Origin: a virus
DNA length: 25,620 nt
Strand: one strand, 5' to 3'
IMG/VR virus record: IMGVR_UViG_3300046820_001170
Span: 1 to 25,620 of that record
Shown: positions 945-14,932 of the stretch, one piece after another
Position numbering within the stretch: position 1 is the first letter of the stretch
Layout of the letters: each line of letters starts with the position of its first letter
Position numbers and translations under genes: made by a program
Notes under the pieces: model-generated
The model's input: the letters and a program-made list of their open reading frames with translations, nothing else
Told to the model about the DNA's origin: nothing
Database searches by the model: none

Positions 945-956
945 ATAAAATAAATA

Positions 957-983
957 GAAAAAGCCTCTCAATTACGAGAGGCT
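957..983 (-). terminator. Rho-independent terminator after groEL
   Basis: An 8-bp perfect inverted repeat (agcctctc at 962-969 and gagaggct at 976-983) encloses a 6-nt loop. On the minus strand it is followed directly by a T-run (the A-run at 958-962 on the plus strand). It lies 23 bp beyond the groEL stop and before the Fe-S carrier gene, so it closes the chaperone operon. Confidence 0.85.
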
Positions 984-1005
984 CTTTACTTCAAGGAAAC
1001 CTTAA

Positions 1006-2643
1006 TTAATACATGCCCATGTTCGGGTCTTGTTCTTGCTTCTTCTTATCGTCTCTCTTTTCGAATATAACTGATTCTGTTGTTAGGATAGTTCCTGCTA
1101 CAGATGCTGCATTCTCTAAAGCCGTACGAGTTACTTTAGCTGGATCTAATAAACCTGCTGTAAATGCATTTACTATTTCTTGCTTCTTAGCATCATAGGT
1201 AAAAGAATCTGCCTCTGTTGCATTTTTTAAGATTGAATAGTAATCTTCAATACCGCAGTTACTTAAGATAGTCTTAAACGGTGCGTAACACGTTTTCTTT
1301 ACAATATCAAAACCTAATAATTCATCAGATGATGTTTCTCTAGGTAAGATTGGTAAATTGTTAACTGCTTTAATTAAAGCAATACCGCCACCAGGTACAA
1401 CACCTTCTGTTAATGCTGCTTTAGTAGCAAATAGAGCATCTTCTACTCTATCTTTTCTCTCTTTAATTTCAATATCAGAATTACCTCCTACTGAAATGAT
1501 AGCTACACCGCCAACTAGTTTGCCTAATCTCTCTTGTAGCTTCTCTTTCTCGTAGAATGAAGTAGCTTTCTCAATTTGATCTTTAATCTCTTGAGCACGT
1601 GCTGTGATCTTCTCTACTTCTCCGTTACCGTCTACGATAGTAGTTGTTTCCTTAGCTACGTTAATTGTTCTAGCCTTACCAAACATCTCTACAAGTTGAA
1701 CAGGAGTTAATTTATCTAACTTATGTCCTTTGTCTTTAGAGATAACTGTACCGCCTGTTAAGATAGCTAAATCTTCTAAGATCAAAGTTCTTCTCTCTCC
1801 AAAGTCTGGAGCTTTAACTGCTGCTACTGAAACAATACCTCTCATCTTATTTACAATCAAAGTAGCTAATGCTTCATCTTCAATATCTTCTGCAACGATT
1901 AGTAAAGGTTTATTATCTGAATTTACTTTACTTAATGCATTTAATAATTCTGCTGCTTTAGTAATACGTCCGTCGTAGATTAAAATGTAAGGCTCAGTTA
2001 AAGAAGCATTCATCGTAGTGTTGTTAGTAACAAAGTATGGAGATTTATAACCTCTATCAAATTGCATACCTTCTACAATCTCTAAACTAGTTTCACCTGT
2101 CTTAGATTCTTCGATAGTAACAATACCTTCTCTACCTACCTTTTCAATAGCTGTAGAGATTAAATTACCTACTTCTACATCGCCATTAGCTGAGATAGTA
2201 GCTACTTGCTGTATTTGATCTTGCGAACTTACGTCCTTAGCGATCTTCTTAATCTGCTCTACTATTTGTGATACGTACTTATCAATACCTTTCTTTACTT
2301 CTACTGGATTAGATCCTTGGTTAATTAACTTTAAACCTTCTTCTACCATAGTAGCTGCAAGTAATGTAGATGTAGTTGTACCATCACCTGCTTCATTAGC
2401 AGACTTAATAGATACTTGCTTTACTAATTGTGCACCTAAATCTTCTACTTGGTCTTCTAACTCATGAAATGATTTAGCTACTGTAACACCATCTTTTGTT
2501 ACTTTTACTTCTCCTGATTGATCTTTAATCAATACTGTTCTACCGCCTGGTCCTAATGTTGAGGATACAGATTGGTTTAATTGTCTAATACCTGCTAATA
2601 ATTTATTCTTTAGCTCGATTCCGAAAACTGTCTGTGTTGCCAT
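1006..2643 (-). CDS. groEL: GroEL-type group I chaperonin
   Basis: This is a full-length 545-residue Hsp60, essentially the bacterial length. It forms the folding ring that encloses substrate proteins with ATP and the GroES lid. Visible signatures are Asp51 in [19 protein letters not shown] at 86-96 holding the catalytic Asp87, the apical GYKSPYF substrate-binding segment, and [11 protein letters not shown] followed by VVPGGGIAL in the returning equatorial domain. All ATPase residues seem intact. The nucleotide loop reads GPGGRTVLI (31-39), where most bacterial proteins have Lys at position 34. The usual C-terminal GGM repeats are reduced to DPNMGMY. The ATG is 2 bp after the groES stop, so the pair is translationally coupled. 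It ends the operon before a strong terminator. It looks functional and belongs to the phage rather than a host chromosome, because all neighbours are viral replication genes. Confidence 0.97.
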
Positions 2644-2645
2644 TT

Positions 2646-3005
2646 CTAATTAATTTTTGTTTTAAATGCATCGTCTATTACTGTCTCTTTAAGAATATCT
2701 AGTACAGATGTACTTTCACTAATCTTAGAATAAACGTCTTGCTCTTTTACGATAAAATAATCTTCTCCCTCTACAGTGATTGATACGGATCCCATTTTTG
2801 GAATCAATACTTTATCTCCAACTACTAGAGCTGAGTCTACATACTTATCAGAGTTATAGTTATATACTCTTGAAGTAGCAATTACCTCTCCTAATTCAGG
2901 TCTTTCTTTACCTAAGTCAGGGATAATAATATTACCTACTGTTTGTTCTTCTTCTTCAATTGGCTTAAGAACTAAATAGCCGTTAAGTGGATTTAATTTA
3001 CTCAT
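2646..3005 (-). CDS. groES: GroES-type co-chaperonin with C-terminal extension
   Basis: This 119-residue protein has a clear GroES fold signature. The N-terminus reads LNPLNGYLVLKPIEEEE, and a mobile loop with a hydrophobic triplet (GNIIIPDLGK) would contact the GroEL apical domain. Next comes ELGEVIA, then VGDKVLIPKMG, and the closing strand DYFIVKEQDVYSKI. The usual length is about 95 residues; here roughly 20 additional residues (about 100-119) follow the core. Its function is to cap the GroEL cavity. It is immediately upstream of groEL (2-bp gap), as in bacteria. Many T4-like phages encode only a GroES substitute such as gp31, whereas this phage carries both partners, so they are probably co-adapted. 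The extension has no motif I recognise. Confidence 0.95.
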   Translation of the reverse strand: MSKLNPLNGYLVLKPIEEEEQTVGNIIIPDLGKERPELGEVIATSRVYNYNSDKYVDSALVVGDKVLIPKMGSVSITVEGEDYFIVKEQDVYSKISESTSVLDILKETVIDDAFKTKIN

Positions 3006-3020
3006 ATACTTTATTATTAT

Positions 3021-3212
3021 TTATTCTGTTATAATTTCAAGATCAGGAATACTTCTCAGAAAAAAAAATTTATCTTCCTTTTTTAGTACAATATCTGCTT
3101 GCAAATACTCTTTTAAGTTCTCTACGATAGGCTTATCGTCTACTCTTACAATCTTTACGATATAGTATAGAGTATTATTAAAGGTAATAAAGTCTTTTTT
3201 GATGAAGTGCAT
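3021..3212 (-). CDS. Small conserved-looking protein of unknown function (63 aa)
   Basis: This is a 63-residue soluble protein rich in Lys, Asp and Phe, with an ATG at 3212. It has alternating hydrophobic and charged stretches (TLYYIVKIVRVDD, ADIVLKKEDKFFFL) that suggest a small beta-barrel or beta-sandwich. There is no signal peptide or membrane segment. It lies between hsp20 and groES with short gaps and should be cotranscribed with both. I do not recognise the family. Position suggests an accessory of the chaperone cassette, but nothing in the sequence proves it. Confidence 0.7.
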   Translation of the reverse strand: MHFIKKDFITFNNTLYYIVKIVRVDDKPIVENLKEYLQADIVLKKEDKFFFLRSIPDLEIITE

Positions 3213-3237
3213 AACTGGTTACTTAGTAGGCTTATTT

Positions 3238-3672
3238 TTATTTACTACTCTTTAATGCTTTTGGAGTAGTGATTTCAATTTTACGCATTGCTTTTCCTTC
3301 CGCAATTGGAATGTTAAGTACTAACAAGCCTTTATCAAGAGAGGCTCTTAATTGCGTTAAATCAAATTTAGGAGATACTTTCCAGCTTAAATCAAAGCCA
3401 GATCTTTTAATACCTCTGTAGATAACTTTTTCTTGATCGAGAGGTTTAACTTTTTCGTATTTAATACGTAATTGATCTCCTTCCACTAAGATTTCAATAT
3501 CTTCTTGGCTAAGGCCGACTGCAGCAACTTCAAATTGAATGCCGTCTTGAGTTTCAAAAATGTCTACTGGGTGTGTTACTTTCTGCGTAATTGCAGAGAA
3601 ATTGGATTGTGTGTCTAATAAGTCTCGCCATAATAGGTCGACTAGATCTAGCTCAAATGGTCTAAATGTCAT
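3238..3672 (-). CDS. Small heat-shock protein, Hsp20/alpha-crystallin family
   Basis: This is a 144-residue protein. An N-terminal arm (1-33) precedes an alpha-crystallin domain (about 34-125), which contains FEVAAVGLSQEDIEILVEGDQL and the family's late A-x-x-x-G-L-L strand (ASLDKGLLVLNIPI, residues 110-123). The C-terminus carries an IxI anchor, IEI, at 132-134, used in oligomer assembly. Small heat-shock proteins are ATP-independent holdases that pass unfolded clients to ATP-driven chaperones such as the GroEL/GroES pair encoded downstream. Hsp20 genes are known in cyanophages and other large phages. It opens the chaperone operon after a 92-bp leader, which holds a promoter-like motif and a hairpin. 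Confidence 0.95.
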   Translation of the reverse strand: MTFRPFELDLVDLLWRDLLDTQSNFSAITQKVTHPVDIFETQDGIQFEVAAVGLSQEDIEILVEGDQLRIKYEKVKPLDQEKVIYRGIKRSGFDLSWKVSPKFDLTQLRASLDKGLLVLNIPIAEGKAMRKIEITTPKALKSSK

Positions 3673-3764: not shown

Positions 3765-6074
3765 CTAGTGTCCGTCTTTAAAGTTATTTGCAACCTCAGG
3801 AATTGCTACTAATTCTACGCCATCCAATTTAGTCGTATTTTCCATACAGTCTTGCATAATTACGCAAGCCCTCTCTACGTCCTCTTCTCTAACCTGACAT
3901 ATCAACTGATCGTGAATCTGTGCAATTACCTGGCCTACAATGTTTTCTCTATGGAATCTTCGGTTTATTTGTAGAGCTGCACGGTTAACTATGCTTGCTG
4001 AGTAACTCTGAATTTGATAGTTTAAACAGTTATTTAAAGCATTCTTATAATCTCTATATAATGTAGTGACTGCTTCTACTCCGTATTCTGCTTCTATACC
4101 TTTTCTAAATTTCCAATCATCTAATATCTTATCTCCAAAAGCTTCATAGATCTCTTTAGCTTTAGGCAAATGTCTAATTCGTCCTACTTTATTTTTAATA
4201 TAACCGTTTTCCTTTATAAACTTACGAGATTGTTCTCTCCATTCTCTTAATTGCGGAAATCCATTTAAGTAACCTTCGACAAGTCTTTCTCCTTCTTTCT
4301 TATCAATACCTAATGACATAGCCAATGCATAGCCGGACATTCCATAAGGTACACCTAAGGCATAGCCTTTAGCAGTCTGTCTTTTAACCGGATCTACTTT
4401 TTTAAGAAAGTTAGGTGCTTTTGTATGCGCACTTACTCCTTCTAGTTTTTCAGTCTTGATAGCAATGTGAGAATAGAAATCTAAATCGTTATTAAAGATA
4501 TCTTTCAAGCCTTGATCTCCAGCTACAGTAGCAAATACTCTCGGCTCTAATGATGCATAGTCGTTATCTAATAACTTAGTTCCTTCGTCACATATAAAGA
4601 AAGCTCTAACTACGTTAGTATATCCCATAATCATATCCTCGTCTTGACCTGGTTCTAACGGTTTAGGTAATTGCTGTAAATCGGAACCATACCTACCTGA
4701 TACTGTTCCGTTTTGTTTAAAGTAAGGATAGAATCTTTCGTCTTCTGCTGCATCTAAGAAACGATCAACGTAGGCTGTTTTAATCTTAGTAAGTTTGTTA
4801 TACAGGCGTAAGTGTCTAGCCCAAGAATACTTTTCGCTAATAGACTGAATCATATCTTCATCGAACTGAGGCTTACCTTTATCAGTAGTTGATAACGGCT
4901 TCTCTCCTAATACGTCAAATGCAATCTTACCTAATTGATCTTTAGATTGAATATTGAAAAATTGTCCGTCGTTATCTTCTTTCCATAAAGTCATACTAAC
5001 CTTAGCTACTTGCTCTCTAGTTAGATAACTTTCATCGCCAGTTATTAAGAAGTCTTTAATAGTAGATTCAGGTAGAGATGTAATAGCAGATTTATTAATA
5101 GCGAATTTCCCTGTTCTTTCTGATCTAGGTAATTCAATACCGCTTTGCTCTAATAGTCTCTGTGCAAAGGTACCTTTATGCTTAGGAGGGTAAGCCGTTC
5201 TAGCTTGCTCTAATATCCAGCTTCTAACTTGAGGTAGAGCCAATAACTCTTTAACAACTAAAGTAGATTGCTCTTCTAGGTCTTTCTTAATATTATCTTG
5301 AGTCTCTTGAATAAGAGCTACGTTAAGTCTAATACCATGCTCTTCCATCGGTATAGTAACCTCTCTATAAACAGGCATTACTTCTTCCTCAAAGAAGAAA
5401 TACTCTAATCCTTCTGCTTGAAGTACAGTTAAGAAATGTTTATAAACACGTAAAGTTAAATCGGTATCAGCAGCAGCATACTTAGCAAGTATAGCCATAT
5501 CTGCTTTATAAATCTCAAAATTATCTTTCGATACAGCACCGCCATTTGCTTTAATGCTAGCTTTTAGTTCTAACTGCTCTTGGTTAGCTTCTGTTTCTAC
5601 GTCTAATCCGATTTCTTTTTGTACCATCTTAGCAATAGACTTTAATCCAAAAGGATTACCGAATCCAAATGCGCCTTCTTCTTTAACTGTGTGTACGAGC
5701 ATTGCAGTATCTGCATGTAAGGCTGGAAGTAAATCTACACCGTAGAAGTTCTTTGTAAATCGAACGTCGAAAGAAGCATTATGCATTACTAATTTTTTCT
5801 TTAGTAATTGACTTATAGCATACTTTGCTAACTTATCTGCATTTGTACCTCCTATCTCAAGCTCTACTAACTGCTCGTTCTTCCATTCACGAATTGGCAT
5901 ATAATAACCTTTACCGATCTCACCAGATACAGAAAAACCAATAATCGAGCCCTTACGGGGATTCAAACTATTGGTCTCTGTATCATACGCAACAAGTTCA
6001 CTGCTGTTAATATGATCTATTAATTGTTTTAAAGTCTCCTTACTGTTGACTGTTACATAACTTTTTTCTTGCAT
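3765..6074 (-). CDS. Family A DNA polymerase with 3'-5' proofreading exonuclease
   Basis: This 769-residue replicative polymerase resembles the Klenow part of Pol I and lacks a 5' nuclease domain. Its N-terminal DEDDy exonuclease has DTE at 31-33, HNASFD at 98-103 and YxxxD at 199-203. The polymerase half has GTVSGRYGSDLQQLP (456-470), motif A with Asp505 in NDYASLEPRVFA, motif B KRQTAKGYALGVPYG (564-578) and motif C HDQ at 721-723. Lys569 and Tyr577 match E. coli Lys758 and Tyr766. The position equivalent to Phe762 is Leu573, a variant described in virioplankton polymerases and associated there with a slower or temperate life style. Motif C has Gln723 in place of the usual Glu883. Both metal-binding Asp residues are intact, so it should be active. 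It is followed upstream (4 bp) by a membrane protein gene. Confidence 0.97.
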   Translation of the reverse strand: MQEKSYVTVNSKETLKQLIDHINSSELVAYDTETNSLNPRKGSIIGFSVSGEIGKGYYMPIREWKNEQLVELEIGGTNADKLAKYAISQLLKKKLVMHNASFDVRFTKNFYGVDLLPALHADTAMLVHTVKEEGAFGFGNPFGLKSIAKMVQKEIGLDVETEANQEQLELKASIKANGGAVSKDNFEIYKADMAILAKYAAADTDLTLRVYKHFLTVLQAEGLEYFFFEEEVMPVYREVTIPMEEHGIRLNVALIQETQDNIKKDLEEQSTLVVKELLALPQVRSWILEQARTAYPPKHKGTFAQRLLEQSGIELPRSERTGKFAINKSAITSLPESTIKDFLITGDESYLTREQVAKVSMTLWKEDNDGQFFNIQSKDQLGKIAFDVLGEKPLSTTDKGKPQFDEDMIQSISEKYSWARHLRLYNKLTKIKTAYVDRFLDAAEDERFYPYFKQNGTVSGRYGSDLQQLPKPLEPGQDEDMIMGYTNVVRAFFICDEGTKLLDNDYASLEPRVFATVAGDQGLKDIFNNDLDFYSHIAIKTEKLEGVSAHTKAPNFLKKVDPVKRQTAKGYALGVPYGMSGYALAMSLGIDKKEGERLVEGYLNGFPQLREWREQSRKFIKENGYIKNKVGRIRHLPKAKEIYEAFGDKILDDWKFRKGIEAEYGVEAVTTLYRDYKNALNNCLNYQIQSYSASIVNRAALQINRRFHRENIVGQVIAQIHDQLICQVREEDVERACVIMQDCMENTTKLDGVELVAIPEVANNFKDGH

Positions 6075-7768: not shown

Positions 7769-7936
7769 CTATTTTTTCTTTTTTGTATATGGAAACATTC
7801 TATTTAAAATATTCTTCCTTCTAGTACAGCCACAATCTTCATACCCGAGTATATGAGCAATCTTATCTGCTAGTCTATCAATATAGAAAAACTTTAGCAC
7901 TTTAGCAACTGTATCTCCTAGTCCTTGTGATTTCAT
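7769..7936 (-). CDS. Small conserved phage protein with CGC-RR-FPY motif (55 aa)
   Basis: The ATG at 7936 overlaps the folE stop as TAATG, and the stop lies 3 bp before the dUTPase-like ATG. The sequence has an N-terminal GLGDTVAKVLKFF, a central helix (IDRLADKIAHILG), then DCGCTRRKNILNRMFPY and a Lys tail. The CGC-x-RR-x4-LN-x2-FPY pattern resembles short hypothetical proteins I associate with Bacteroidota phages. The paired cysteines may bind metal. Function is unknown. The overlap indicates coupled translation. Confidence 0.75.
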   Translation of the reverse strand: MKSQGLGDTVAKVLKFFYIDRLADKIAHILGYEDCGCTRRKNILNRMFPYTKKKK

Positions 7937-8646
7937 TATTTACGTGGATAACCTTTAGCAAATTCATAAAATTCTAATCTAGCTGAATCTTCGTTTAAGA
8001 ATGATCCACTTAGCTTAGATGTCTTCATACTAGCACCTTGATGCTTAACTCCTCTACAGCTTACACAGTTGTGAGTAGCTTCAATCATTACTGCTACGCC
8101 AATATTACCTTCACAAATTTGATCTACTGCATTGTGAATGGCTACAGTTAACTGCTCTTGAATAGCACCTCTTCTACTAAAATGCTCTACTATACGATTT
8201 AGCTTACTTAAGCCTACTACTCTACCTTCTAAGGTAGGAATATAAGCAATATGGCATAACCCGTTAATAGTCTGATGATGATGAGAGCACATACTCGTAA
8301 TAGGAATACCTCCTTCGAATACTACGCCGTCATAGCCATCGCTTGGAAAGCTCGTAACAGAGTCTAATGGCTCATACCTACCTTTCCATAAGTCATTTAC
8401 ATAAGCTTTAGCTACTCTTCTTGGAGTATTAGAACTATTAGGATCATTCTCCCAGTCTACACCTAATGCAGTTAAGAACTTACCGTAATGCTCAGTAGCT
8501 TCTTCAATGATAGTTAACTTTTGCTTATCACTTAAAGAATACTGGCCGTTCTTAATAGCATCTCTTAAATAAGTGCTAATACCGTTAGCAAAGCCTGGTT
8601 GAGCTAATTCTAAGCTCTCAATGTCTATATTTTTATTTCTATTCAT
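7936..8646 (-). CDS. folE: GTP cyclohydrolase I, first step of 7-deazaguanine synthesis
   Basis: FolE (236 aa) converts GTP to dihydroneopterin triphosphate, the precursor shared by folate and 7-deazaguanine pathways. The zinc site is intact: Cys120 and His123 in SMCSHHHQ, and Cys194 in THNCVSCRGV. GLSKLNRIVEHFSRRGAIQEQL (146-167) is the family core, and VKHQGASM follows. The N-terminal extension of about 20 residues before the first helix is ordinary. The genes upstream in the operon encode QueD, QueE, QueC, DpdA, QueF and a formyltransferase, so it serves DNA modification here rather than folate. It is the last gene of that locus in transcription order and overlaps the next small ORF. Confidence 0.96.
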   Translation of the reverse strand: MNRNKNIDIESLELAQPGFANGISTYLRDAIKNGQYSLSDKQKLTIIEEATEHYGKFLTALGVDWENDPNSSNTPRRVAKAYVNDLWKGRYEPLDSVTSFPSDGYDGVVFEGGIPITSMCSHHHQTINGLCHIAYIPTLEGRVVGLSKLNRIVEHFSRRGAIQEQLTVAIHNAVDQICEGNIGVAVMIEATHNCVSCRGVKHQGASMKTSKLSGSFLNEDSARLEFYEFAKGYPRK

Positions 8647-8654
8647 ATTGTATA

Positions 8655-9164
8655 TTATAAGTATTTTGAAATCTGCTCTAAACGTTCTTCTACCGTACCT
8701 GTTAAAGTTACGACTTTTTCTTCAGGTATATACTCCTTTATAAACTTTTGTATAATTCCATCAATCTTAATCTGTAACTCTGCACTCAATCTATCCGGAT
8801 CATCTACGAAGTCAAACTCGATAGGAATATAGAAGAAGTACTCTACTTGATCTTTAGTTCTTTCGAATAACTCTCTAATCTCATCAATATTAACATTAGG
8901 AGTTAAGATTCGTGAGTAGATAATACAGTCAACTAAACTACGAGTACTAATTACATTTTTATGAGTTAAGTAATTTTGATAGGCCCAAGCAGATAGCTCA
9001 TTAATTGCATACTGCTTTTCGTCGTTAGATAACTCTAACATTTTACCAATCTTAATTACAGGACGAGAAAACCCGTCAGTTACATAATAATCAGGAAATC
9101 TGGTAGATACCTCTTTTAGTAAGGTAGTTTTACCAGTTCCGTGAGATCCTATTAATATCTTCAT
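8655..9164 (-). CDS. P-loop nucleotide/nucleoside kinase-like ATPase
   Basis: This 169-residue protein begins almost directly with a Walker A motif, GSHGTGKT (residues 7-14). It is followed by a TDGFSRPVIK segment and STRSLVDCIIYSR, resembling the D-R/D lid and substrate region of NadR/AAA_28-type and thymidylate-type kinases. The C-terminal half has the alternating strands of a small P-loop kinase. No second domain is visible. It sits inside the deazaguanine locus between folE and the formyltransferase, with 8-bp and 4-bp gaps. A role phosphorylating a nucleotide or pathway intermediate is possible, but a general phage deoxynucleotide kinase is equally possible. Substrate cannot be read from the sequence. 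Confidence 0.75.
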   Translation of the reverse strand: MKILIGSHGTGKTTLLKEVSTRFPDYYVTDGFSRPVIKIGKMLELSNDEKQYAINELSAWAYQNYLTHKNVISTRSLVDCIIYSRILTPNVNIDEIRELFERTKDQVEYFFYIPIEFDFVDDPDRLSAELQIKIDGIIQKFIKEYIPEEKVVTLTGTVEERLEQISKYL

Positions 9165-9168
9165 GTGT

Positions 9169-9753
9169 CTATTTTGTTAAAAATAAGGACTTATCTTCAG
9201 ATAGCCAACTTTTAAAGAATGCTTCCCAAGTTATAAGAGAAGTATTTCTTAGTAGTTCATAAGCTTCGTCTATAGTACTTGTTGTATTTTTAATATTACA
9301 GGAAACTATTACTTTTCCTGCATCTAACTCTGGAATACATTCATGAATAACGGATCCACAGAAAGGATACTTTTCTTGATTTCCAGCAATATCCTCTTGT
9401 TTATTAAAGCCTTTTAATTCTGGGTATTTAGTAATTAGAGCTGGATGTCCGTTATAAATTTTACCTTTAAAGTACGGAAAGAATCCTTCCGGTACTATTC
9501 TCAAAAACCCATGTAAGGTAATTAATTCTTTTTCTACTAATCCAGACCTTAAGTACTGATCTAGAGTAGGTTTATTAGGAAGTACTACTATCTCTATACT
9601 GTTTTTCCCAAAGATCTCCATGTTCTTTTCAGAAATCTTAGTAACTCTATTAGTTACGACTAAACTAGGGAGAATCCCAAGCTTTTCACTAATAGCTATT
9701 ACTTCAGAACCTGTCTGAGATACTAGTACTCCCCAATTGCTTAATACTTTCAT
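9169..9753 (-). CDS. dpdN: PurN-like formyltransferase, candidate preQ1 formyltransferase (DpdN)
   Basis: This 194-residue protein is of the GART/PurN formyltransferase family, which transfers formyl from 10-formyl-tetrahydrofolate to an amine. The catalytic triad is visible: Asn101 and His103 in NGHPALITKYP, and Asp144 in PELDAGKVI, at the same spacing as E. coli PurN (106, 108, 144). ITLHGFLRIVP matches the folate-binding AGFMRIL region. PurN normally makes purines. Here the gene lies between queF and a kinase, and its ATG overlaps the queF stop as TAATG. Phage formyltransferases of this kind were proposed (DpdN) to formylate preQ1 to 7-(formylamino)methyl-7-deazaguanine in DNA. Family membership is sure; the deazaguanine role rests on context and that precedent. 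Confidence 0.85.
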   Translation of the reverse strand: MKVLSNWGVLVSQTGSEVIAISEKLGILPSLVVTNRVTKISEKNMEIFGKNSIEIVVLPNKPTLDQYLRSGLVEKELITLHGFLRIVPEGFFPYFKGKIYNGHPALITKYPELKGFNKQEDIAGNQEKYPFCGSVIHECIPELDAGKVIVSCNIKNTTSTIDEAYELLRNTSLITWEAFFKSWLSEDKSLFLTK

Positions 9754-10670
9754 TATTGGCCCATTGCTTTTTTAGTGTAGAATCCTGTATCAATTAATTC
9801 TTTTGGAATTAAGTACTCTTTAGAAGCACGAACAGGATTAATATCTAATGAACCACGTCTTGCATATAATAACATTACTACGCAATCTTCTACATCCGGA
9901 TGATTCGTAATAGACTTAAATAATTTTTCGCTACAGAATTCATGAAACTCATTAACTTCTCGTAATGCAATAACTTCTTTAAGTAAAGATTGTAAGTCAA
10001 CAGTACCATTCTTAGTAACGATACGGAAGTAAGCTGCTCCTGTATCTTTTTGCTTGGTATGTCTACATCTTGATCTTAACAAGTTAGTCATTACAAATAA
10101 GTCTTCTCCTCTTTCTCCTGGAACTATTTTAAAATGAGTCTCTTTACCGTCGTAGTCTGTAACTTCCATAGCTTCTAAATCTTTATTACCGATTAAGCGT
10201 AACATGTCAAGATAGAAAGCGCCTGGATCTCCTTCGTACATCTTTTCCTCTCCTTGTCTAAAGAAAGCTACTTTAGCTTCTGCACCAATGCATGCACTAA
10301 TATCTTTTGCTACTTGCTTCTCATAGTTTTCAATAGCTTGTGGGATAGTATCTCCCATTTTGCACATATCAAACGTATTTAAGTAAAGTTTAAAAGATTT
10401 AGACTCTACCATAAATTCAGAACTAGCAGGGCATACTATTTTTAAAGTACCTGCCATAGGTAAACCGTTATTTAATAAGAAGGTCGCTTCGTGACAATGC
10501 CACGTATCGTAACCTACAAATTCATCTCCTTTAATACCCCAATCTCCACGAGCTAATGCTCTTGGCATAGGATTTAATTGACTAGGATCAAAGGTGTCTG
10601 TATAGACTGCATATGAGTTAGCTGACCCTAAGGTTTTAGCAGCTACTTCTGACATATTACTTGCTGACAT
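9753..10670 (-). CDS. queF: NADPH-dependent 7-cyano-7-deazaguanine reductase, long two-module QueF
   Basis: QueF (305 aa) reduces the nitrile of preQ0 to the aminomethyl group of preQ1. The two-module (E. coli-type) layout is present. The N-terminal module has ESKSFKLYLNTF (89-100), the NADPH-binding signature. The C-terminal module has the nucleophile Cys202 and proton donor Asp209 with exactly the family spacing, plus NEFHEFC (240-246) and RRGSLDINP. The catalytic loop is unusual: RCRHTKQKD where bacterial enzymes have NCLITHQPD. Catalytic residues are thus kept while the surrounding side chains changed. A second ATG at 10655 (Met6) lies 1 bp after the dpdA stop and is an equally good start. 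With QueF present, the DNA base should be preQ1-derived rather than preQ0. Confidence 0.93.
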   Translation of the reverse strand: MSASNMSEVAAKTLGSANSYAVYTDTFDPSQLNPMPRALARGDWGIKGDEFVGYDTWHCHEATFLLNNGLPMAGTLKIVCPASSEFMVESKSFKLYLNTFDMCKMGDTIPQAIENYEKQVAKDISACIGAEAKVAFFRQGEEKMYEGDPGAFYLDMLRLIGNKDLEAMEVTDYDGKETHFKIVPGERGEDLFVMTNLLRSRCRHTKQKDTGAAYFRIVTKNGTVDLQSLLKEVIALREVNEFHEFCSEKLFKSITNHPDVEDCVVMLLYARRGSLDINPVRASKEYLIPKELIDTGFYTKKAMGQ

Positions 10671-11439
10671 AATTACGGAATGTTTTTATATTTTTAAAGA
10701 TAAGGTTTATTTGTTCTTCTGACAACTCAATATCTAAGTTATCTGCTAATTTAGCTTTTGGTTTAGGTACATTTAATCCATGAGGTCCTAATTCGTTTCC
10801 TACCCATCCGTTAATAACAGGTGAACTAGTATCTAGCGAATAGATAAGACCTCTTAATGGAGTAGTAAGAGAGTTAATTAAAATAAACTCTACTGGGTTC
10901 TGACATCCCAATAAGTGAAATTTAGGTTTACCGATTCCTATGTTGAATCTATTTTCATACCACCAGTTTAAGAATCTAAATCTTACTGTTACGTAATCTG
11001 ACTGTTCAACTAAGTCAAAAGGTAATGCAATAATATCTACCTTCTCAGTTAAGTAGTAATCTATACAATCAGCAATTTGCTCAAAGGTATCTCCTTGACA
11101 TACACCAATATACTTTTGATCTTCTACTTTATAATTTGCTAGATACTCTTTTGCATTAGTTAAAGTCTGATCGTAATCATTAACGACATCAGGAAGTACA
11201 AGGTGAGTAGGTTTATATTCTTTACCTAACTCGTATAGCTCCTCCATCGGTATAGACTTACCTAATTCGAATGCTGAATTATCTAATATAGAGTATTCTG
11301 CTGTTTCTAACTTCTTCTTATAGAAGTCAGCATATTCTGTATCTAAGCTTAATAAATGACCTAGTACGTAAGGGTAATCACTTACCTCATCATGTCGATC
11401 AAATAACGCTTTCGGTATTTCGTGTGAAATTAAAGGCAT
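10657..11439 (-). CDS. dpdA: DpdA-type DNA guanine transglycosylase
   Basis: This 260-residue protein resembles the TGT-like DpdA enzymes that exchange guanine in DNA for a 7-deazaguanine base. Visible elements are LDNSAFELG (Asp53), LVLPDVVNDYD (Asp84), IGVCQG (111-116), IIALPFD, the FHLLGCQNP strand, and SLDTSSPV (Asp203). The last is in the position of the TGT nucleophile. The Cys-rich zinc module of tRNA TGTs is absent, as expected for short phage DpdA. It is flanked by queC (3 bp) and queF (14-bp overlap), the most direct contextual support. Subfamily (DpdA1, 2 or 3) cannot be settled by eye. It should act after replication on double-stranded phage DNA. Confidence 0.87.
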   Translation of the reverse strand: MPLISHEIPKALFDRHDEVSDYPYVLGHLLSLDTEYADFYKKKLETAEYSILDNSAFELGKSIPMEELYELGKEYKPTHLVLPDVVNDYDQTLTNAKEYLANYKVEDQKYIGVCQGDTFEQIADCIDYYLTEKVDIIALPFDLVEQSDYVTVRFRFLNWWYENRFNIGIGKPKFHLLGCQNPVEFILINSLTTPLRGLIYSLDTSSPVINGWVGNELGPHGLNVPKPKAKLADNLDIELSEEQINLIFKNIKTFRNYVSK

Positions 11440-11442
11440 AAT

Positions 11443-12285
11443 TTATTTTTTATATTCTGATAAAACTCTTTCTACTTGTGTTTTTGCAAACTGCCAGCTA
11501 ACAGGTCCTGTTTCGTCTGCATACTCTACTGGGTCAGGACGTCCTAATTTAATAAATGCTTCAATACGCTCTACTGATGCTGCTGATTTATAATCAGAGT
11601 ACCAGTTACCTTGAGTATCAGACCATGAATGTCTAATAAAAATCGGCTTATAAGAAGTATTTGTACGCTTATATACTTCGTCAAAGTCTAAACCTAATGC
11701 TTCGCATGATCTTAATCCGTCTTCTAAGATCTCAAACTTAGTTTCATTTAAGTAAGGAGTATATAGTGATACTAAATCAGCATCCCAGTTGCCAGTTTTA
11801 AATGCTTCGAAATCTGCATCTCTAAATTCTTGGCGGCAATCAGGATAAATTGCATGATCACCTGCGTGAATACCCATTGCAATAGCTACCTCTTGACCGA
11901 TAGAACAATCTTCAGTAATAGGTTGAGTTGCGATCGATAAAGCAGCTGCTTGAATCAATGAGCTAAAAATCTTATTACGATTAGGTACAACAGTTGCTTT
12001 CATATTATCTTGCTCGTAATGTCCTTCTGGTACATCTGCACCTCCTGTCACTAAAGCAGAATTTAATAATTGCTGTAACCCGTCTAATTTAATAACTTGA
12101 TATTTTACTTTTTGATTCTTAGAGTTTAAATACTCTACTAATGATTTAGCTCTTTCAAGCTCTACTTTATGCTTTTGACCGTAATCAAAACCTAATGCTG
12201 TTACTTCATAGCCATTAGCTAAAAGATGTAATAAAAGAGATGAAGAATCCATCCCGCCTGACAGTGATAAGACTGCTTTTTTCAT
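11443..12285 (-). CDS. queC: 7-cyano-7-deazaguanine synthase QueC lacking the zinc cysteines
   Basis: QueC (280 aa) converts 7-carboxy-7-deazaguanine to preQ0 with two ATP and ammonia. The PP-loop SGGMDSS (9-15), FDYGQKHKVELERA (33-46) and VPNRNKIF (100-107) are intact, so ATP chemistry is plausible. The conserved C-terminal zinc site is lost. Aligning TNTSY (208-212) and DYKSAASVERIEAF (231-244) to the bacterial enzyme puts Ser211, Asp231, Ser234 and Ser237 where E. coli has Cys188, 197, 200 and 203. The linker between the first and second positions is also longer by about 11 residues. The only cysteines are 127, 150 and 194. The protein otherwise runs to normal length, so this looks like a stable variant rather than decay. 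It lies 3 bp upstream of dpdA. Confidence 0.93.
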   Translation of the reverse strand: MKKAVLSLSGGMDSSSLLLHLLANGYEVTALGFDYGQKHKVELERAKSLVEYLNSKNQKVKYQVIKLDGLQQLLNSALVTGGADVPEGHYEQDNMKATVVPNRNKIFSSLIQAAALSIATQPITEDCSIGQEVAIAMGIHAGDHAIYPDCRQEFRDADFEAFKTGNWDADLVSLYTPYLNETKFEILEDGLRSCEALGLDFDEVYKRTNTSYKPIFIRHSWSDTQGNWYSDYKSAASVERIEAFIKLGRPDPVEYADETGPVSWQFAKTQVERVLSEYKK

Positions 12286-12334
12286 GTTTAAATTAATTAA
12301 AATTTAGAGCGTATTATTTTGTGAATCGATTAGC

Positions 12335-12343
12335 TCTATAACC
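12335..12343 (-). promoter_or_regulatory. Promoter-like motif (GGTTATAGA) upstream of queC
   Basis: On the minus strand the context is TAATTCGGTTATAGAGCTAA, 50 nt before the queC ATG. It is nearly identical to the element before the ribonucleotide reductase (TAATTAGGTTATAGACCTAA), and the core recurs before hsp20. This gap is the longest inside the deazaguanine locus and could start a queC-dpdA-queF-folE transcript. Confidence 0.5.
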
Positions 12344-12346
12344 GAA

Positions 12347-12553
12347 TTATTTTTTATCTTGCTTATCGTTAAGTTCTTTCTGTAAAGAAAGTATTTGACT
12401 AGTAATATTACCTACTAATGTTCCTAACTGTGCCCAGATATCATCGCACTCTTTTTCTAACTTGTTAACAAGTCTTAATTGATAAATCTGTAAGCCTACA
12501 AGTATTAGTATAATACCAATGTATAAATGTTCTGGTGTAAATGTAACTGTCAT
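12347..12553 (-). CDS. Small single-pass membrane protein with coiled coil (68 aa)
   Basis: Residues 9-23 (HLYIGIILILVGLQI) form one membrane helix. The rest, from LRLVNKLEKECDDIW to the end, is a charged amphipathic helix likely to form a coiled coil, ending KDKQDKK-like (NDKQDKK). The layout, a short N-terminus, a helix and a helical tail, resembles inner-membrane spanins and other small phage membrane proteins. Its place in a biosynthesis operon does not support a lysis role. No family recognised. The start is the ATG at 12553. Confidence 0.68.
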   Translation of the reverse strand: MTVTFTPEHLYIGIILILVGLQIYQLRLVNKLEKECDDIWAQLGTLVGNITSQILSLQKELNDKQDKK

Positions 12554-12565
12554 TAATTAAAGGTA

Positions 12566-12814
12566 TTATTTTTTATTCGTTTCAACAACTTCATTCATGA
12601 ATTCGTTAAACTCTAATGTTCCTGGAAATGCTATAAAATTAGGATTATCCATTATTCTCTGTAATGCTTTGATAGTTAGATCTTTATTTTTAGTATCAAT
12701 AAGTAAAGGTTCTAAAATATACTCTTCTGTTGACCCTTCCTTGCGGTTTAAGTAAAATAGAGTACCTGCTACTTCACCTAGAGCCTGATAATATTCTTCT
12801 GCGGTAGTACTCAT
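12566..12814 (-). CDS. Hypothetical protein (82 aa)
   Basis: This is an 82-residue acidic, soluble, probably helical protein (MSTTAEEYYQALGEVAGTLF, and later LEFNEFMNEVVETNKK). There is no signal peptide, membrane segment, cysteine or catalytic motif. It is packed between two other small ORFs in the gap separating queE from queC, with 12-17 bp spacing. I do not recognise it. The in-frame length and packing argue that it is real. Confidence 0.65.
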   Translation of the reverse strand: MSTTAEEYYQALGEVAGTLFYLNRKEGSTEEYILEPLLIDTKNKDLTIKALQRIMDNPNFIAFPGTLEFNEFMNEVVETNKK

Positions 12815-12819
12815 ACTAT

Positions 12820-12835
12820 ACGTTTAATGTTTTAT
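12820..12835. repeat. 16-bp direct repeat, copy 1
   Basis: The sequence acgtttaatgttttat is repeated exactly at 13047-13062. The two copies flank the 69-residue ORF with a 227-bp period. This copy spans that ORF's stop codon. Confidence 0.7.
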
Positions 12836-13041
12836 AACTCATTTTCTGTTAATTCTAATAGATTGTCAGTATCTAGTATATAAGGAAACCCTGTTTTTAT
12901 ATCTGTACAATAGGAATGTCCTTTTATATTTTTTACTTCGCCAAGACAGGCAAATACTATTCCTTCAAATGGATTAGAGTTTTCTTTTTTCCATTCTTCA
13001 GGAAAAGAATCGTAGTTATACTTAACAAGCTTCACTCCCAT
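12832..13041 (-). CDS. Hypothetical protein (69 aa) between direct repeats
   Basis: This is a 69-residue soluble protein (MGVKLVKYNYDSFPEEWKK, then GIVFACLGEVKNIKGHSYC, and FPYILDTDNLLELTENEL). The middle resembles a small beta-rich fold of the sort seen in short phage proteins that carry a G-H-x-Y/C-x-x turn. Its ATG lies 1 bp after the queE stop. The ORF and its stop are bounded by exact 16-bp direct repeats, which suggests that it was inserted or duplicated as a unit. No function can be read. Confidence 0.65.
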   Translation of the reverse strand: MGVKLVKYNYDSFPEEWKKENSNPFEGIVFACLGEVKNIKGHSYCTDIKTGFPYILDTDNLLELTENEL

Positions 13042-13042
13042 A

Positions 13043-13876
13043 TTAAACGTTTAATGTTTTATCCCAAGCCGCAATATGTAATCTAGTTAAACCACGGAAG
13101 CGATACTTTTTAGCCATCTCCATTACAAATCGAGTACGCTCTTCAAAGTTAGCTGCATCATCTAAACCTGGCATACAAACTACATTCTCTAATGGAATAT
13201 AAAACGGTTCAATAAAGTCTCTAAAGATTTCTTTAACATCATCTTCACTGCTAATAACAAACTTAAATTGATAATTTCTATGTTCCATAATACGATTAAT
13301 TGCTTTAGGAACGATACGTTGCTTAGCAGTCATACCTGAGTTATCTAACTTAGGTGAACAGTTAATCTGATCTAAGTTTTGAAATAACTCCTCTTCGATA
13401 AAGTTAGTACCGTTAGTTTCAATTTCATAATAAGTACTACGTAAAGATCCTTCTATATCCATCCAATACTCGGTAAAGTTATTAATCGCTACTTGATGTC
13501 CTGCAATAGTAGGTTCACCGCCGGTCCAGATAATACGTACACGCCCATCTAAGATGTCTTCATATACGCCCTCTTCTTTAAAACGATCTAATAGATACTG
13601 AAACTCTTTATCTTCTCCTCTCCATAACCATTGGGATGTAGAGTCACAAGTCCAAGTAGCTTTACCTTCTTTAACTAAATCACCTTCAAAGATTTCTCCA
13701 TCTTCTAGTAATTGCTCTTTCATTAACTTATTAGTAAATGCTCTAGACATACCACAGGTTAGGTTACAAATACCTAAACGAACAAAGTATGCTGGAATAC
13801 CGCTACTTATACCTTCGCCTTGAATTGTATAAAAGTCACTAGTAATAAGTAACTTATTTGGATCTATCTTACTCAT
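13043..13876 (-). CDS. queE: 7-carboxy-7-deazaguanine synthase, radical SAM QueE with large insert in the cluster motif
   Basis: QueE (277 aa) contracts 6-carboxy-tetrahydropterin to 7-carboxy-7-deazaguanine using SAM and a 4Fe-4S cluster. It opens with FYTIQGEG (15-22), the family N-terminal signature. The cluster motif begins normally with CNLTC (Cys37, Cys41), but the third cysteine is Cys77 in TWTCDST. The arrangement is therefore CX3CX35C rather than CX3CX2C. SAM-binding WTGGEPTI follows, then YEIETNGT and NCSPKLDNSG, both canonical. The 35-residue insert is acidic and Lys-rich, and may form a helical cap or a partner-binding surface. Cluster-loop insertions are known in some QueE types, but this one is long. 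The start overlaps a 51-residue ORF by 8 bp. Confidence 0.93.
   Translation of the reverse strand: MSKIDPNKLLITSDFYTIQGEGISSGIPAYFVRLGICNLTCGMSRAFTNKLMKEQLLEDGEIFEGDLVKEGKATWTCDSTSQWLWRGEDKEFQYLLDRFKEEGVYEDILDGRVRIIWTGGEPTIAGHQVAINNFTEYWMDIEGSLRSTYYEIETNGTNFIEEELFQNLDQINCSPKLDNSGMTAKQRIVPKAINRIMEHRNYQFKFVISSEDDVKEIFRDFIEPFYIPLENVVCMPGLDDAANFEERTRFVMEMAKKYRFRGLTRLHIAAWDKTLNV
13047..13062. repeat. 16-bp direct repeat, copy 2
   Basis: This is an exact copy of 12820-12835. Here the repeat encodes the last residues of QueE (KTLNV), so this copy is likely to be the original and the other a product of recombination. Confidence 0.7.
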
Positions 13877-14024
13877 TAGTTGCTGTTTTAGGGGTTTCTA
13901 CTTTTTTAAATTGAGCCTTCCATTCAGACTTCGGAATAAATTTCCACTCTCTAGTAGCTTGATCAGCTTTTTCATTTGTTACTCGGATAATTTCTCCGGT
14001 CTTAGAACTCTTTAAACACTTCAT
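13869..14024 (-). CDS. Small basic protein (51 aa) upstream of queE
   Basis: The minus-strand ORF from the ATG at 14024 encodes 51 residues: MKCLKSSKTGEIIRVTNEKA, then DQATREWKFIPKSEWKAQFK and a Lys/Thr tail. It has one of the few strong Shine-Dalgarno sequences in the window, GGAGG, 8 bases before the ATG. It overlaps queE by 8 bp, consistent with translational coupling. The pattern of a SKTGEI-R-V turn followed by W-x-FIPKSEWK resembles short phage proteins of unknown function. It has no membrane segment. Confidence 0.72.
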   Translation of the reverse strand: MKCLKSSKTGEIIRVTNEKADQATREWKFIPKSEWKAQFKKVETPKTATNE

Positions 14025-14042
14025 AGTTTTTCCTCCATGTTT

Positions 14043-14177
14043 TTATTTGAATAATGTCTTTATATAATTTAATACAGGGTTAAAGGTATGCCACTCACTA
14101 AGCAAGTAAATGATACTCGGATGCTTTTCTCCACATACTCCTAACGCATGTTCTATAATATGTAAAATTTCGTGCAT
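14043..14177 (-). CDS. Small His-rich helical protein (44 aa)
   Basis: A short ORF, ATG at 14177 and TAA at 14043, fills the gap between the 94- and 51-residue ORFs. The sequence begins MHEILHIIEHALGVCGEKHP and continues with SIIYLLSEWHTFNP. Regular His/Glu spacing (H2, E3, H6, E9, H10, H19) and one Cys could bind metal. Similar HEILHIIEH-type short proteins occur in phages as far as I recall. Function unknown. Confidence 0.6.
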   Translation of the reverse strand: MHEILHIIEHALGVCGEKHPSIIYLLSEWHTFNPVLNYIKTLFK

Positions 14178-14180
14178 AAC

Positions 14181-14465
14181 TTATTTTTTATCTACATAAT
14201 GATGTAGCTTCTTTCTCAACCTATCAATTCGTATTTGACAATACCACTTACCCATATTACCGCTCGCATTGTTATACCTCTCTTGCCAATACTTTATACC
14301 TTTATTAGTTTTAGCATTAGCTTCTTCAAGATAGTCAATATCCCAATAGCTATTATTCTCTTGTATTTCTTCATCGGTAGGAATATAAGGATTTTCCTCT
14401 TCCCACTTTTCGATTAGCATTCTACGTCGAGACTTCTCTTGATTTTTTTCGAATTTCTTATTCAT
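14181..14465 (-). CDS. Hypothetical charged helical protein (94 aa)
   Basis: This is a 94-residue, highly charged and aromatic-rich protein: KKFEKNQEKSRRRMLIEKW, PTDEEIQENNSYWDIDY, and a C-terminal basic helix (QIRIDRLRKKLHHYVDKK). The ATG overlaps the queD stop as TAATG, so translation is coupled. The basic ends and acidic middle suggest a nucleic acid- or protein-binding helical bundle, but I recognise no family. It lies between queD and queE in the locus. Confidence 0.68.
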   Translation of the reverse strand: MNKKFEKNQEKSRRRMLIEKWEEENPYIPTDEEIQENNSYWDIDYLEEANAKTNKGIKYWQERYNNASGNMGKWYCQIRIDRLRKKLHHYVDKK

Positions 14466-14932
14466 TATTCTATGTAAATTGCTGAGTTTCTTTTATTCTC
14501 AAAGAATTCTACTTGTGCTACTCTAACACGGCTATCTGTTTCCTCTTGCACAAAAGTATTTATCTTACCGTAAATATACTTTGCGAATTGTTCGGCGCCT
14601 ACTGGACCTTCAAGTATTCTTAACTGTACTACACCTCTCTTATCTAACTCTTTAAAGATCTCTAATTCAGGATCATCTGGTGCTAATACTGTAGTATGAT
14701 CGAACATATAGTCCATCCATTGCTTAGCATTCATACCGTCGATTTGAGTCTTAGCTCTCTTCATACCGCCAAAGTCCCATACCCAGTTTCTATGATCTAA
14801 CTCTCCTTCAAAAGTTACTCTAAATTCAATATCGTAACCATGTAAAAATCTACAATGCGTACCTTCTGCAGCCCATTGACGGAATACGGTACTAAACCCG
14901 TCGTATAATTTTGTTGATTGAAATTTGCTCAT
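14465..14932 (-). CDS. queD: 6-carboxy-tetrahydropterin synthase, QueD family variant
   Basis: QueD (155 aa) converts dihydroneopterin triphosphate to 6-carboxy-tetrahydropterin, the QueE substrate. Family elements are THCRFLHGYDIEFRV (25-39) with Cys27, WVWDFGGMK (50-58), DHTTVL (78-83) with the catalytic Asp-His pair, and EGPVGAEQFA (108-117) with the substrate Glu. The zinc triad differs from E. coli His16/His31/His33: the first position reads Phe (FSTVF), the second is His31 and the third is Tyr33. An additional His26 could substitute. I recall a proteobacterial subgroup with a similar FRQW and HCRFLHGY sequence, so this is probably a natural subfamily, not decay. It is the first deazaguanine gene in transcription order, downstream of the reductase. 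Confidence 0.88.
   Translation of the reverse strand: MSKFQSTKLYDGFSTVFRQWAAEGTHCRFLHGYDIEFRVTFEGELDHRNWVWDFGGMKRAKTQIDGMNAKQWMDYMFDHTTVLAPDDPELEIFKELDKRGVVQLRILEGPVGAEQFAKYIYGKINTFVQEETDSRVRVAQVEFFENKRNSAIYIE

Follow-up and report, generated by a model that had tools for sequence, protein, structure and literature searches.

The DpdA3-like transglycosylase encoded by this virus of bacteria is coupled to a P-loop kinase, and the coupling recurs in most clusters of the DpdA3 subfamily, with kinases of different families. The window, i.e. the whole stretch of 25,620 nt that was analysed (positions 1-25,620 of IMG/VR record IMGVR_UViG_3300046820_001170), contains a minus-strand block of genes at 7936-14932. 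The earlier note had read this as a self-sufficient gene set leading from GTP to preQ1, together with a transglycosylase and a formyltransferase; Pfam, PHROG and fold searches bear this out, and every gene that it named is confirmed as an open frame. It missed a P-loop kinase gene at 8655-9164, so that its interpretation, supported for the pathway genes, omits a near-constant neighbor of DpdA3. This constancy raises the possibility that the modified base enters by way of free nucleotides instead of being exchanged within DNA.

All the genes of the block are on the minus strand. FolE (GTP cyclohydrolase I, 236 aa; 7936..8646) matches PF01227 (E 1.9e-44), and QueD (6-carboxy-tetrahydropterin synthase type, 155 aa; 14465..14932) matches PF01242 (E 9.5e-15) and phrog_2389 (E 4.8e-41). 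The QueE-like radical SAM protein (277 aa; 13043..13876) matches phrog_2076 (E 6.3e-38), with no Pfam match found at E 0.01. Its cysteine triad is present, spread as CX3C-X35-C when the spacing is counted, and an insert of 15-60 residues is found in 60 of the 157 QueE ORFs examined; Fisher values for this set take no account of common descent. The candidate preQ0 synthase (280 aa; 11443..12285; PF06508, E 6.8e-36) aligns with SGGMDS at the SGGxDS motif, given as that of QueC in a section of PMC13329287. The zinc motif C(x)8CxxCxxC is missing from the window protein and from those of RHEph26 and Flavobacterium phage vB_FspM_immuto_2-6A (NC_055915; immuto hereafter), i.e. three of the eight aligned, and because this C-terminal cysteine motif is missing we term it a QueC-family protein. 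QueF (305 aa; 9753..10670) is a two-module nitrile reductase of the type converting preQ0 to preQ1 (PF14819, E 2.3e-24; PF14489, E 2.3e-10); the columns of Cys202 and Asp209, which we take to be the catalytic cysteine and the aspartate seven residues on, are invariant across the six sequences aligned.

The ORF coordinates give spacings of +3, -14, -1, +4 and +8 nt in the order QueC-DpdA-QueF-PurN-like-kinase-FolE. With gaps and overlaps so small, these genes look like one translation-coupled operon. Three small ORFs lie between QueE and QueC (12347..13041; 68 aa at 12347, 82 aa at 12566 and 69 aa at 12832), with no Pfam match above cut-off; those of 68 and 82 aa are found again within the lineage of the window. 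An ORF of 94 aa (14181..14465) lies between QueD and QueE. Elsewhere in the window, a second PolA-like protein (22191-23486) has DNA polymerase I as its best PDB match (E 0.068), and no BLASTP similarity to the PolA of the window.

The transglycosylase (260 aa; 10657..11439) is of the DpdA type, matching phrog_19058 (E 3.4e-25) and no Pfam family. Its match to the annotated DpdA of immuto has 32.8% identity over 100%. An AlphaFold model (pLDDT 89.6) gave as its best Foldseek match 7ui4, the solved DNA preQ0 insertase (E 3.4e-6), and the 50 matches listed by VIA were all TGTs or 7ui4 (top Z 17.4, rmsd 3.0, 232 aligned; Z 16.9 for 7ui4). The predicted fold is the TIM barrel of TGT and DpdA. An aspartate in the catalytic region is invariant among 12 diverse sequences, and in a profile match the region lines up with HLLG...SID of 7ui4 (E 0.0064); the invariant residue is presumably the catalytic aspartate. 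By tblastn the window DpdA is connected with both the CP220-type and the immuto DpdA, with weak deep forks in a tree that carries a long-branch warning; a scan with the BSTP5 DpdA as query found no relative. We use DpdA3 as a provisional name for the subfamily; complete guanine replacement is the property that goes with that name.

The kinase gene (8655..9164) lies between those of the PurN-like protein and FolE. The protein matches AAA_28 (E 8.4e-8) and phrog_2107, 'thymidylate kinase' (E 5.3e-16), and has the P-loop GSHGTGKT. Foldseek matched thymidylate kinases (TMK), including 2yof (E 4.0e-6) and one solved with dGMP, while VIA placed YorR (2axp, Z 15.0) and NadR (8x7f, Z 14.9) in a tie. 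The fold is that of a TMK/NadR-like kinase. NadR kinases act on nucleosides, and the protein may be a nucleoside kinase.

A kinase is found within 3 kb in 68 of the 75 DpdA3 clusters and in 0 of the 59 clusters with other DpdA proteins, the loci having been found partly through the PurN-like protein or the DpdA of the window. None of the 59 has even a small Walker-A ORF on the same strand in that distance. Clusters lacking 1.5 kb flanks were dropped from these counts (14/89 DpdA3 and 6/65 others); the 9g-type control set includes phiSM and Dp-1, with Quesadilla outside the 59, and the scans for relatives took the best 80 of 528, the best 80 of at least 575 and the best 80 of 183. In a set found with a DpdA3 profile, built from the CP220-type and immuto proteins plus three relatives that have the PurN-like gene, the kinase is present in 37 of 42 clusters, 27 of them without the PurN-like gene; here two clusters were dropped, on the downstream flank only. 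In three of the other five it lies about 7 kb away. On the fragmentary contigs of L193 and L211 the searches found neither this kinase nor a dNMP kinase, and no DUF3310 or thymidylate kinase either. A partnership of the kinase with the formyltransferase or with QueF was considered and rejected, because the kinase persists when both are absent, and because Dp-1 and R5C, with 9g-related DpdA, have an annotated QueF and no kinase annotated adjoining DpdA. The kinase is thus tied to the DpdA3 subfamily and not to formylation, and in the preferred reading would be part of the base-replacement machinery.

Other families hold the place of the kinase in several phages. These are phrog_761 in BSTP5 and Youna2, an AAA_18 P-loop protein (phrog_19196) in phiST, and a T4-type dNMP kinase (PF21448) in Vibrio phage D479, whose gene overlaps that of DpdA by 1 nt. 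DUF3310, a domain of T7 gp1.7, occupies the slot in loci L095, L100 and L110, and in RHph_I1_18 it is fused to the C-terminus of the DpdA3 protein. T7 gp1.7 phosphorylates dGMP and dTMP, according to sections of PMC7693777 and PMC12846349. In the DpdA3 tree L095 and L100 are nested within the clade that has the kinase, and RHph_I1_18 has D479 as its sister. The 23 loci in which DUF3310 was surveyed all lack a kinase at 3 kb or closer, and cut-off contigs are among them. Several points weigh against the nucleotide-level route. The DUF3310-only proteins of 80-88 aa may be non-kinases. Immuto has, besides the kinase, a protein annotated as DUF3310 at a distance of some 13 kb, and in Quesadilla a P-loop nucleotide kinase lies about 2.4 kb from DpdA. 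Whole-record control searches (AAA_28-type profile, DNMK, DUF3310 and Thymidylate_kin) of 22 non-DpdA3 records found, away from DpdA, a dNMP kinase in nt-1 and DUF3310 in two. The exchange of different kinases at the DpdA3 locus, with one fusion of T7 gp1.7 type, could be the trace of a mononucleotide route, a reading to which we give somewhat less than an even chance.

In the explanation that we prefer, FolE, QueD, QueE and QueC would convert GTP to preQ0, QueF would reduce this to preQ1, and the PurN-derived enzyme would formylate the preQ1 amine, on the free base or the nucleotide. The DpdA3-type transglycosylase would put the 7-deazaguanine into phage DNA indirectly, swapping it for guanine on dGMP (or dG). 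Phosphorylation by the kinase would then carry the modified nucleotide on to the triphosphate, for incorporation by the phage polymerase in replication; with modified dGTP as substrate, guanine would be replaceable throughout. The earlier note proposed that the base protects the DNA from host restriction. What the analysis establishes is the identity of the genes, their folds and conserved residues, and the coupling of DpdA3 with kinases of several families; the reactions, the final base, its presence in virion DNA, the protection and the nucleotide-level step are inferences. That a 7-deazaguanine is present in phage DNA is very probable. Entry at the nucleotide level is a proposal to which we give nearly even weight, and the same holds for the scheme as a whole, with pathway, nucleotide-level swap and kinase taken together; a DpdA3 acting as a mononucleotide transglycosylase on dGMP, with a dedicated dNMP kinase and replication using modified dGTP, is plausible at slightly under that level.

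The most serious alternative retains the base pathway and has DpdA3 exchanging guanine in finished DNA after replication, leaving the kinase an accessory in guanine recycling (a phosphoribosyltransferase turning the released guanine into GMP, which the kinase then takes) or in topping up dNTPs. We consider this a strong contender, a little short of an even prospect. DpdA3 has the fold of TGT and DpdA, enzymes that work on polymers, and we know of no TGT-fold enzyme acting on a mononucleotide. Furthermore, Cui et al. in 2023 reportedly concluded that insertion is post-replicative, which is the published view for DpdA enzymes generally. Phosphoribosyltransferases are indeed encoded near some DpdA genes, but in 8/75 DpdA3 and 8/59 other clusters, so that we rejected them as a specific partner of DpdA3. 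Moreover every DpdA frees guanine, yet the 59 other clusters have no such kinase within 3 kb; and for salvage a host guanylate kinase could serve. The stand-ins for the kinase also include a dNMP kinase and the domain of a dGMP/dTMP kinase, which argues against an accessory role.

Enzymes that drain dGTP, in parallel with MazZ and DatZ, were considered as a general part of the nucleotide-level route and rejected. A whole-record search of 19 records for MazG and HD found MazG in one (phiST, below the Pfam cut-off) and HD in two, over the cut-off in one (CP220). Single loci do have candidates: MazG adjoins DpdA in L211, PRA-PH is found in immuto, and in L096 a DUF1599-like ORF, which at 23.3 bits falls short of the cut-off (25), stands between the PurN-like and kinase genes. 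The median net charge is -8 for DpdA3 (89 clusters) and -5 for other DpdA proteins (65 clusters); neighboring proteins fall in the same range, so charge does not discriminate the substrate.

The end product is probably formyl-preQ1. The putative DpdN (194 aa; 9169..9753) matches PF00551 (E 1.5e-7), and the best matches in a PDB sequence search were PurN structures. N106, H108 and D144, the positions of the catalytic Asn-His-Asp, and H137 (E. coli PurN numbering) are retained in 20/20 rows, and a looser catalytic motif pattern in 76 of 82 distinct PurN-like ORFs, some of which are cut. However, N13 is changed to E, and R64 and E173 are lost, each in all 20 rows; in true PurN proteins N13 and E173 are retained in 5/5 and R64 in 4/5, with a gap in S-SKS1. 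We take these three to be residues of the GAR site. In a tree with PurN as the only outgroup (no Fmt rows) the family is separated from the five PurN sequences by a 100/100 branch, so that the enzyme is set apart from PurN. QueF is on the locus in 120 of 124 formyltransferase loci (with overlapping stretches from a single contig entered separately), a pairing that fits acylation of preQ1. In three of the other four the contig ends just past the gene, and the fourth is L117, a Microcoleus locus with a formyltransferase relative but no pathway genes. A DpdA ORF is present in 118/124; five of the remaining six begin near a contig end, and the sixth is L117. An end product other than formyl-preQ1, be it preQ1 or a different acylated base, with the formyltransferase working in folate or purine metabolism, is unlikely. 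In its favor, the nearest solved family is PurN, and genuine PurN is encoded by phages such as S-SKS1 and one of Acinetobacter, but the separate branch and altered GAR-site positions speak against this, as do DpdA3 loci where the PurN-like gene occurs with QueF, beside DpdA, QueF and the kinase.

Relatives of the formyltransferase are encoded on 528 viral-contig stretches, and in two loci among 84,980 species genomes (using patterns slightly stricter than those of the viral scan). In a tblastn search of phage isolates it was present in the four immuto records, and the five further matches were PurN-like proteins at 23-29%, so the family is commoner than phage isolates suggest. That the phage boosts host tRNA queuosine, with DpdA as a tRNA transglycosylase, is very improbable, since the top Foldseek match of the transglycosylase present here is the DNA enzyme 7ui4, and queuosine synthesis is not known to have a formyltransferase step. 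In its favor, a section of Hutinet 2019 allows such a role for phages without DpdA.

Immuto shares QueC, QueD, QueE, FolE, DpdA, PurN-like, kinase, QueF, PolA and GroES/GroEL genes with the window, so the pathway is of an already known kind. They differ in gene order, with identities of 33% (DpdA), 35% (PurN-like) and 29% (kinase), and in immuto a PRA-PH protein and a phosphoribosyltransferase are also encoded close by. The name DpdN reportedly goes back to Cui et al. in 2023, as does the chemistry of fdPreQ1; they are said to have proposed phages with formyl-preQ1 DNA, which reportedly share DpdA, QueF and formyltransferase with the window. Campylobacter phage CP220 and Bacillus phage BSTP5 share a DpdA3-like DpdA adjoining a nucleotide kinase, but have no QueF, PurN-like, preQ1 step or formylation within the stretch read. 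Escherichia phage 9g and its relatives share FolE, QueD, QueE, QueC and DpdA beside replication genes; by contrast, the 59/59 non-DpdA3 clusters without a kinase within 3 kb are mostly 9g-type. The Z-genome phages (PurZ/DatZ/MazZ/DpoZ) resemble the preferred model in that the base is modified at the nucleotide level and then polymerized; they use other enzymes, and dNTP-draining enzymes are not general in the records searched here.

At issue is the stage, before replication or after it, at which 7-deazaguanines become part of phage DNA. A modified dGTP is mentioned as possible for Campylobacter phages in part of Hutinet 2019. Because DpdA3 is coupled with a kinase, two purified proteins would suffice to test the entry route. 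Should the nucleotide route hold, DpdA3 would to our knowledge be the first TGT-fold enzyme to act off polymers, and this would explain complete guanine replacement. Phages would then have, in addition to the diaminopurine system, a second means of achieving complete replacement of a purine at the level of the dNTP.

The modification genes of the window, a virus record of 25,620 bases, lie on the minus strand from 14932 to 7936, in the order QueD, a 94-aa ORF, QueE, three small ORFs, QueC, the DpdA candidate, QueF, a PurN-like formyltransferase, a P-loop kinase and FolE. The spacing of the genes from QueC to FolE is -14 to +8 nt. The 7-deazaguanine gene block proposed in the earlier note is thus borne out, every gene that it named being encoded on this strand; its list left out the kinase, at 8655-9164. 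The pathway itself is already represented by Flavobacterium phage vB_FspM_immuto_2-6A (immuto), whose gene set is identical in kind, so that the window is not a first instance, and a formyltransferase for DNA of the 7-deazaguanine type has already been proposed.

On alignment QueF retains the catalytic-type Cys and Asp. A C-terminal zinc-type cysteine motif is absent from QueC in the window (11443-12285), immuto (locus L002, 4608-5486) and RHEph26 (L216, 2630-3466), and is kept in the other five of the eight aligned phage QueC proteins. In QueE (13043-13876) an insert of 35 residues separates the second from the third cluster cysteine; inserts of 15-60 residues are present in 60 of the 157 QueE ORFs of the loci. 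A HesB-like Fe-S biogenesis protein adjoins the block, within 612-3672, where reading of the sequences also points to GroEL, GroES and an Hsp20-like protein; immuto likewise has annotated groES/groEL close by. A PolA-like protein is encoded at 3765-6074, and apart from it a 431-aa protein at 22191-23486 that matches DNA polymerase I weakly (E 0.068) and may be a reduced second polymerase.

The 260-aa DpdA candidate gave no Pfam match. It is 32.8% identical over its whole length to the annotated DNA guanine transglycosylase of immuto, the next relatives being those of Campylobacter phages of the CP220 kind. An AlphaFold model built from 15 sequences (pLDDT 89.6) had as its top Foldseek match the solved DNA preQ0 insertase 7ui4 (E 3.4e-6), and among the 50 rows listed by VIA-align it was matched to archaeal and bacterial TGTs and to 7ui4 with Z of 17.4 to 16.3. 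We take this type of DpdA to be the one named DpdA3, which Cui et al. 2023 reportedly link with complete replacement of guanine.

The best solved relatives of the formyltransferase (9169-9753) are PurN enzymes. We aligned 18 viral members and two from cellular contigs with five PurNs, using E. coli PurN as the reference. N106, H108, H137 and D144 (E. coli PurN numbering) are kept in all 20 PurN-like rows; in the same 20, N13 is changed to Glu, and R64 and E173 are missing. The last three are presumably positions at the GAR site, and in the PurNs N13 and E173 are kept in five of five and R64 in four of five. The two groups are split in the tree with support of 100/100. The PurN-like family is mainly viral, with relatives on 528 viral-contig stretches vs two loci in 84,980 species genomes, the latter scanned with slightly stricter patterns. 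QueF is present on 120 of 124 PurN-like loci (stretches of one contig that overlap, and the window, being treated as separate loci). The exceptions are three loci that run out shortly past the PurN-like gene, plus L117, on a Microcoleus MAG contig. From gene content, this co-occurrence would fit a substrate bearing the preQ1 amine. One of the two cellular loci, L118, carries a complete DpdA pathway. The other, L117 (4752-8534), encodes a formyltransferase of the SQTGxE type, and no genes of the DpdA pathway or other 7-deazaguanine genes were detected on its contig, so the family may also serve another use. Its neighbours there include a weak phosphoribosyltransferase match, below the cut-off, and, as read from the sequence, putative aminotransferase-like and radical-SAM-like genes; an unrelated nucleoside pathway is possible.

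Of the core genes, the one that varies most among several close relatives (the window and L003-L024) is that for the formyltransferase. In one of these, L007, identities to the window are 97% for DpdA, 98% for QueF and 96% for the kinase, and 79% for the formyltransferase. Across the relatives the KGFNKQED/KGKDPQ region of the formyltransferase comes in two forms. The gene may have been exchanged locally or be under diversifying selection. A small DUF1599-like ORF (nucleotide modification associated domain 1) lies between formyltransferase and kinase in three loci (L096, 1598-1936; L085, 9434-9769; L099, 8558-8902), with matches all below the cut-off (best E 8.4e-5), and L094 has a similar ORF (8558-8902, phrog_1485).

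The kinase matches AAA_28 in Pfam (E 8.4e-8) and thymidylate kinase in PHROG. Foldseek matched its model (pLDDT 81.8) to thymidylate kinases, the best being 2yof (E 4.0e-6) and the second 2wwg, a thymidylate kinase solved with dGMP; VIA placed B. subtilis YorR (2axp, Z 15.0; 3kb2, Z 14.9) and NadR (8x7f, Z 14.9) tied on top. By its predicted fold the protein is a nucleotide or nucleoside kinase.

The kinase is present on 116 of the 124 PurN-like loci. Four of the other eight end before it (L001, L028, L029, L201), three hold a DUF3310 protein (L095, L100, L110), and L117 has neither kinase nor DUF3310-like stand-in on the locus. A partnership of kinase and formyltransferase was dropped, because phages lacking QueF and the PurN-like gene by DpdA still have a kinase-type P-loop protein. 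Such a protein adjoins DpdA in CP220, CC_R7, BSTP5, Youna2 and phiST, phages in whose DpdA region neither annotation nor search showed QueF or a PurN-like gene. The scans for relatives each supplied the best 80, of 528 (PurN-like), of at least 575 (DpdA3 profile) and of 183 (a third scan). DpdA3 loci, found in part through the PurN-like gene or the window's DpdA, were grouped at 90% identity, and flanks of 1.5 kb were required on both sides, giving 75 clusters. The kinase lies within 3 kb of DpdA3 in 68 of these; 40 of the 75 have both QueF and the PurN-like gene, 20 QueF only, two the PurN-like gene only and 13 neither. In the DpdA3-profile set the kinase is found in 37 of 42 clusters, 27 of the 37 being without the PurN-like gene. 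For three of the five exceptions (L191, L202, L207) it is about 6.8 to 7.0 kb away on the same contig; for L193 and L211 profile searches of their contigs of 35 and 25 kb found no kinase, DNMK, DUF3310 or Thymidylate_kin.

The control set comprised 59 clusters of DpdA related to that of Escherichia phage 9g, with a few other DpdA, under the same flank requirement, and none has the kinase within 3 kb. A small same-strand Walker-A ORF lies within 3 kb in 64 of the 75 DpdA3 clusters vs none of the 59 controls. A search of 22 whole non-DpdA3 records with the kinase profile turned up two weak matches, one in nt-1 (E 1.4e-4; a 327-aa frame scoring 114.6 bits in AAA_28) and one in a viral contig (E 0.0046). 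DNMK was found in one of the 22 (nt-1), DUF3310 in two (G019, Salmonella phage 7-11) and Thymidylate_kin in none. Such proteins therefore also occur in phages outside the DpdA3 group, but few control records have them, and in none do they adjoin DpdA. Inspection by eye of the neighbourhoods of Arbiter, Finch, R5C, phiSM and Dp-1 found no kinase annotated beside DpdA; in Quesadilla the distance from DpdA to a P-loop nucleotide kinase is about 2.4 kb, and a ParB-like gene is present as well. In phiSM (L219), Quesadilla (L221) and Finch (L306) a ParB-like gene adjoins DpdA where DpdA3 has the kinase; a partner of this kind, binding DNA, would be apt for partial modification at specific sites. Beside the 9g-type DpdA of Variovorax phage VPv64 (L215, 2951-3859) a putative phosphoribosyltransferase-like domain is fused to a following FolE, and this could recycle released guanine.

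Other proteins occupy the kinase position in some phages, namely phrog_761 ('thymidylate kinase') proteins in BSTP5 and Youna2 and a phrog_19196 protein (AAA_18 by Pfam) in phiST. In Vibrio phage D479 a gene that shares 1 nt with DpdA encodes a dNMP kinase (phrog_139, E 1.2e-29; PF21448, E 5.7e-9). L095, L100 and L110, without a P-loop kinase, have a DUF3310 protein of 80-88 aa between the PurN-like gene and QueF, and in Rhizobium phage RHph_I1_18 DUF3310 (24.2 bits, cut-off 24) forms the C-terminus of the DpdA3-profile protein (95.5 bits). DUF3310 is also contained in T7 gp1.7, which according to passages of PMC7693777 and PMC12846349 phosphorylates dGMP and dTMP. Of 23 loci without a kinase within 3 kb (cut-off contigs included), four have DUF3310 no more than 1.5 kb from DpdA3; the count is none of 180 for loci with a kinase and none of 88 for loci of other DpdA. 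In a tree of 40 DpdA3 proteins the kinase-bearing clade (98/95) encloses L095 and L100, and D479 and RHph_I1_18 are sisters (100/98). The rest of the deep branching is uncertain, as are the long branch of CC_R7 and the grouping of long branches with each other. Since different nucleotide kinases replace one another, this suggests that the activity, and not one specific protein, is required alongside DpdA3. DUF3310 is not only a substitute, because immuto, which has the kinase, also encodes a protein annotated as DUF3310 at a distance of some 13 kb.

The simplest reading, to which we give close to an even chance, is that DpdA3 would swap the base at the nucleotide level, on dGMP or dG before replication, and that the kinase would raise the product towards the triphosphate. 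A passage of Hutinet 2019 raises the possibility that Campylobacter phages have machinery for a modified dGTP. Enzymes draining dGTP were not a general part of the records searched, and this counts against exchange on nucleotides. So does the fact that the TGT-fold enzymes known to us act on polymer substrates, as well as the published view that base insertion is reportedly post-replicative. Exchange in finished DNA, with the kinase as an accessory, we consider a serious possibility somewhat short of even. The whole-record searches for DNMK, DUF3310 and Thymidylate_kin altered neither estimate. We did not find the coupling of DpdA3 and kinase in the literature searched, which excluded the most relevant paper, and make no claim of priority for it. 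Coupling to a kinase provides a testable claim on how the modified base enters the DNA.
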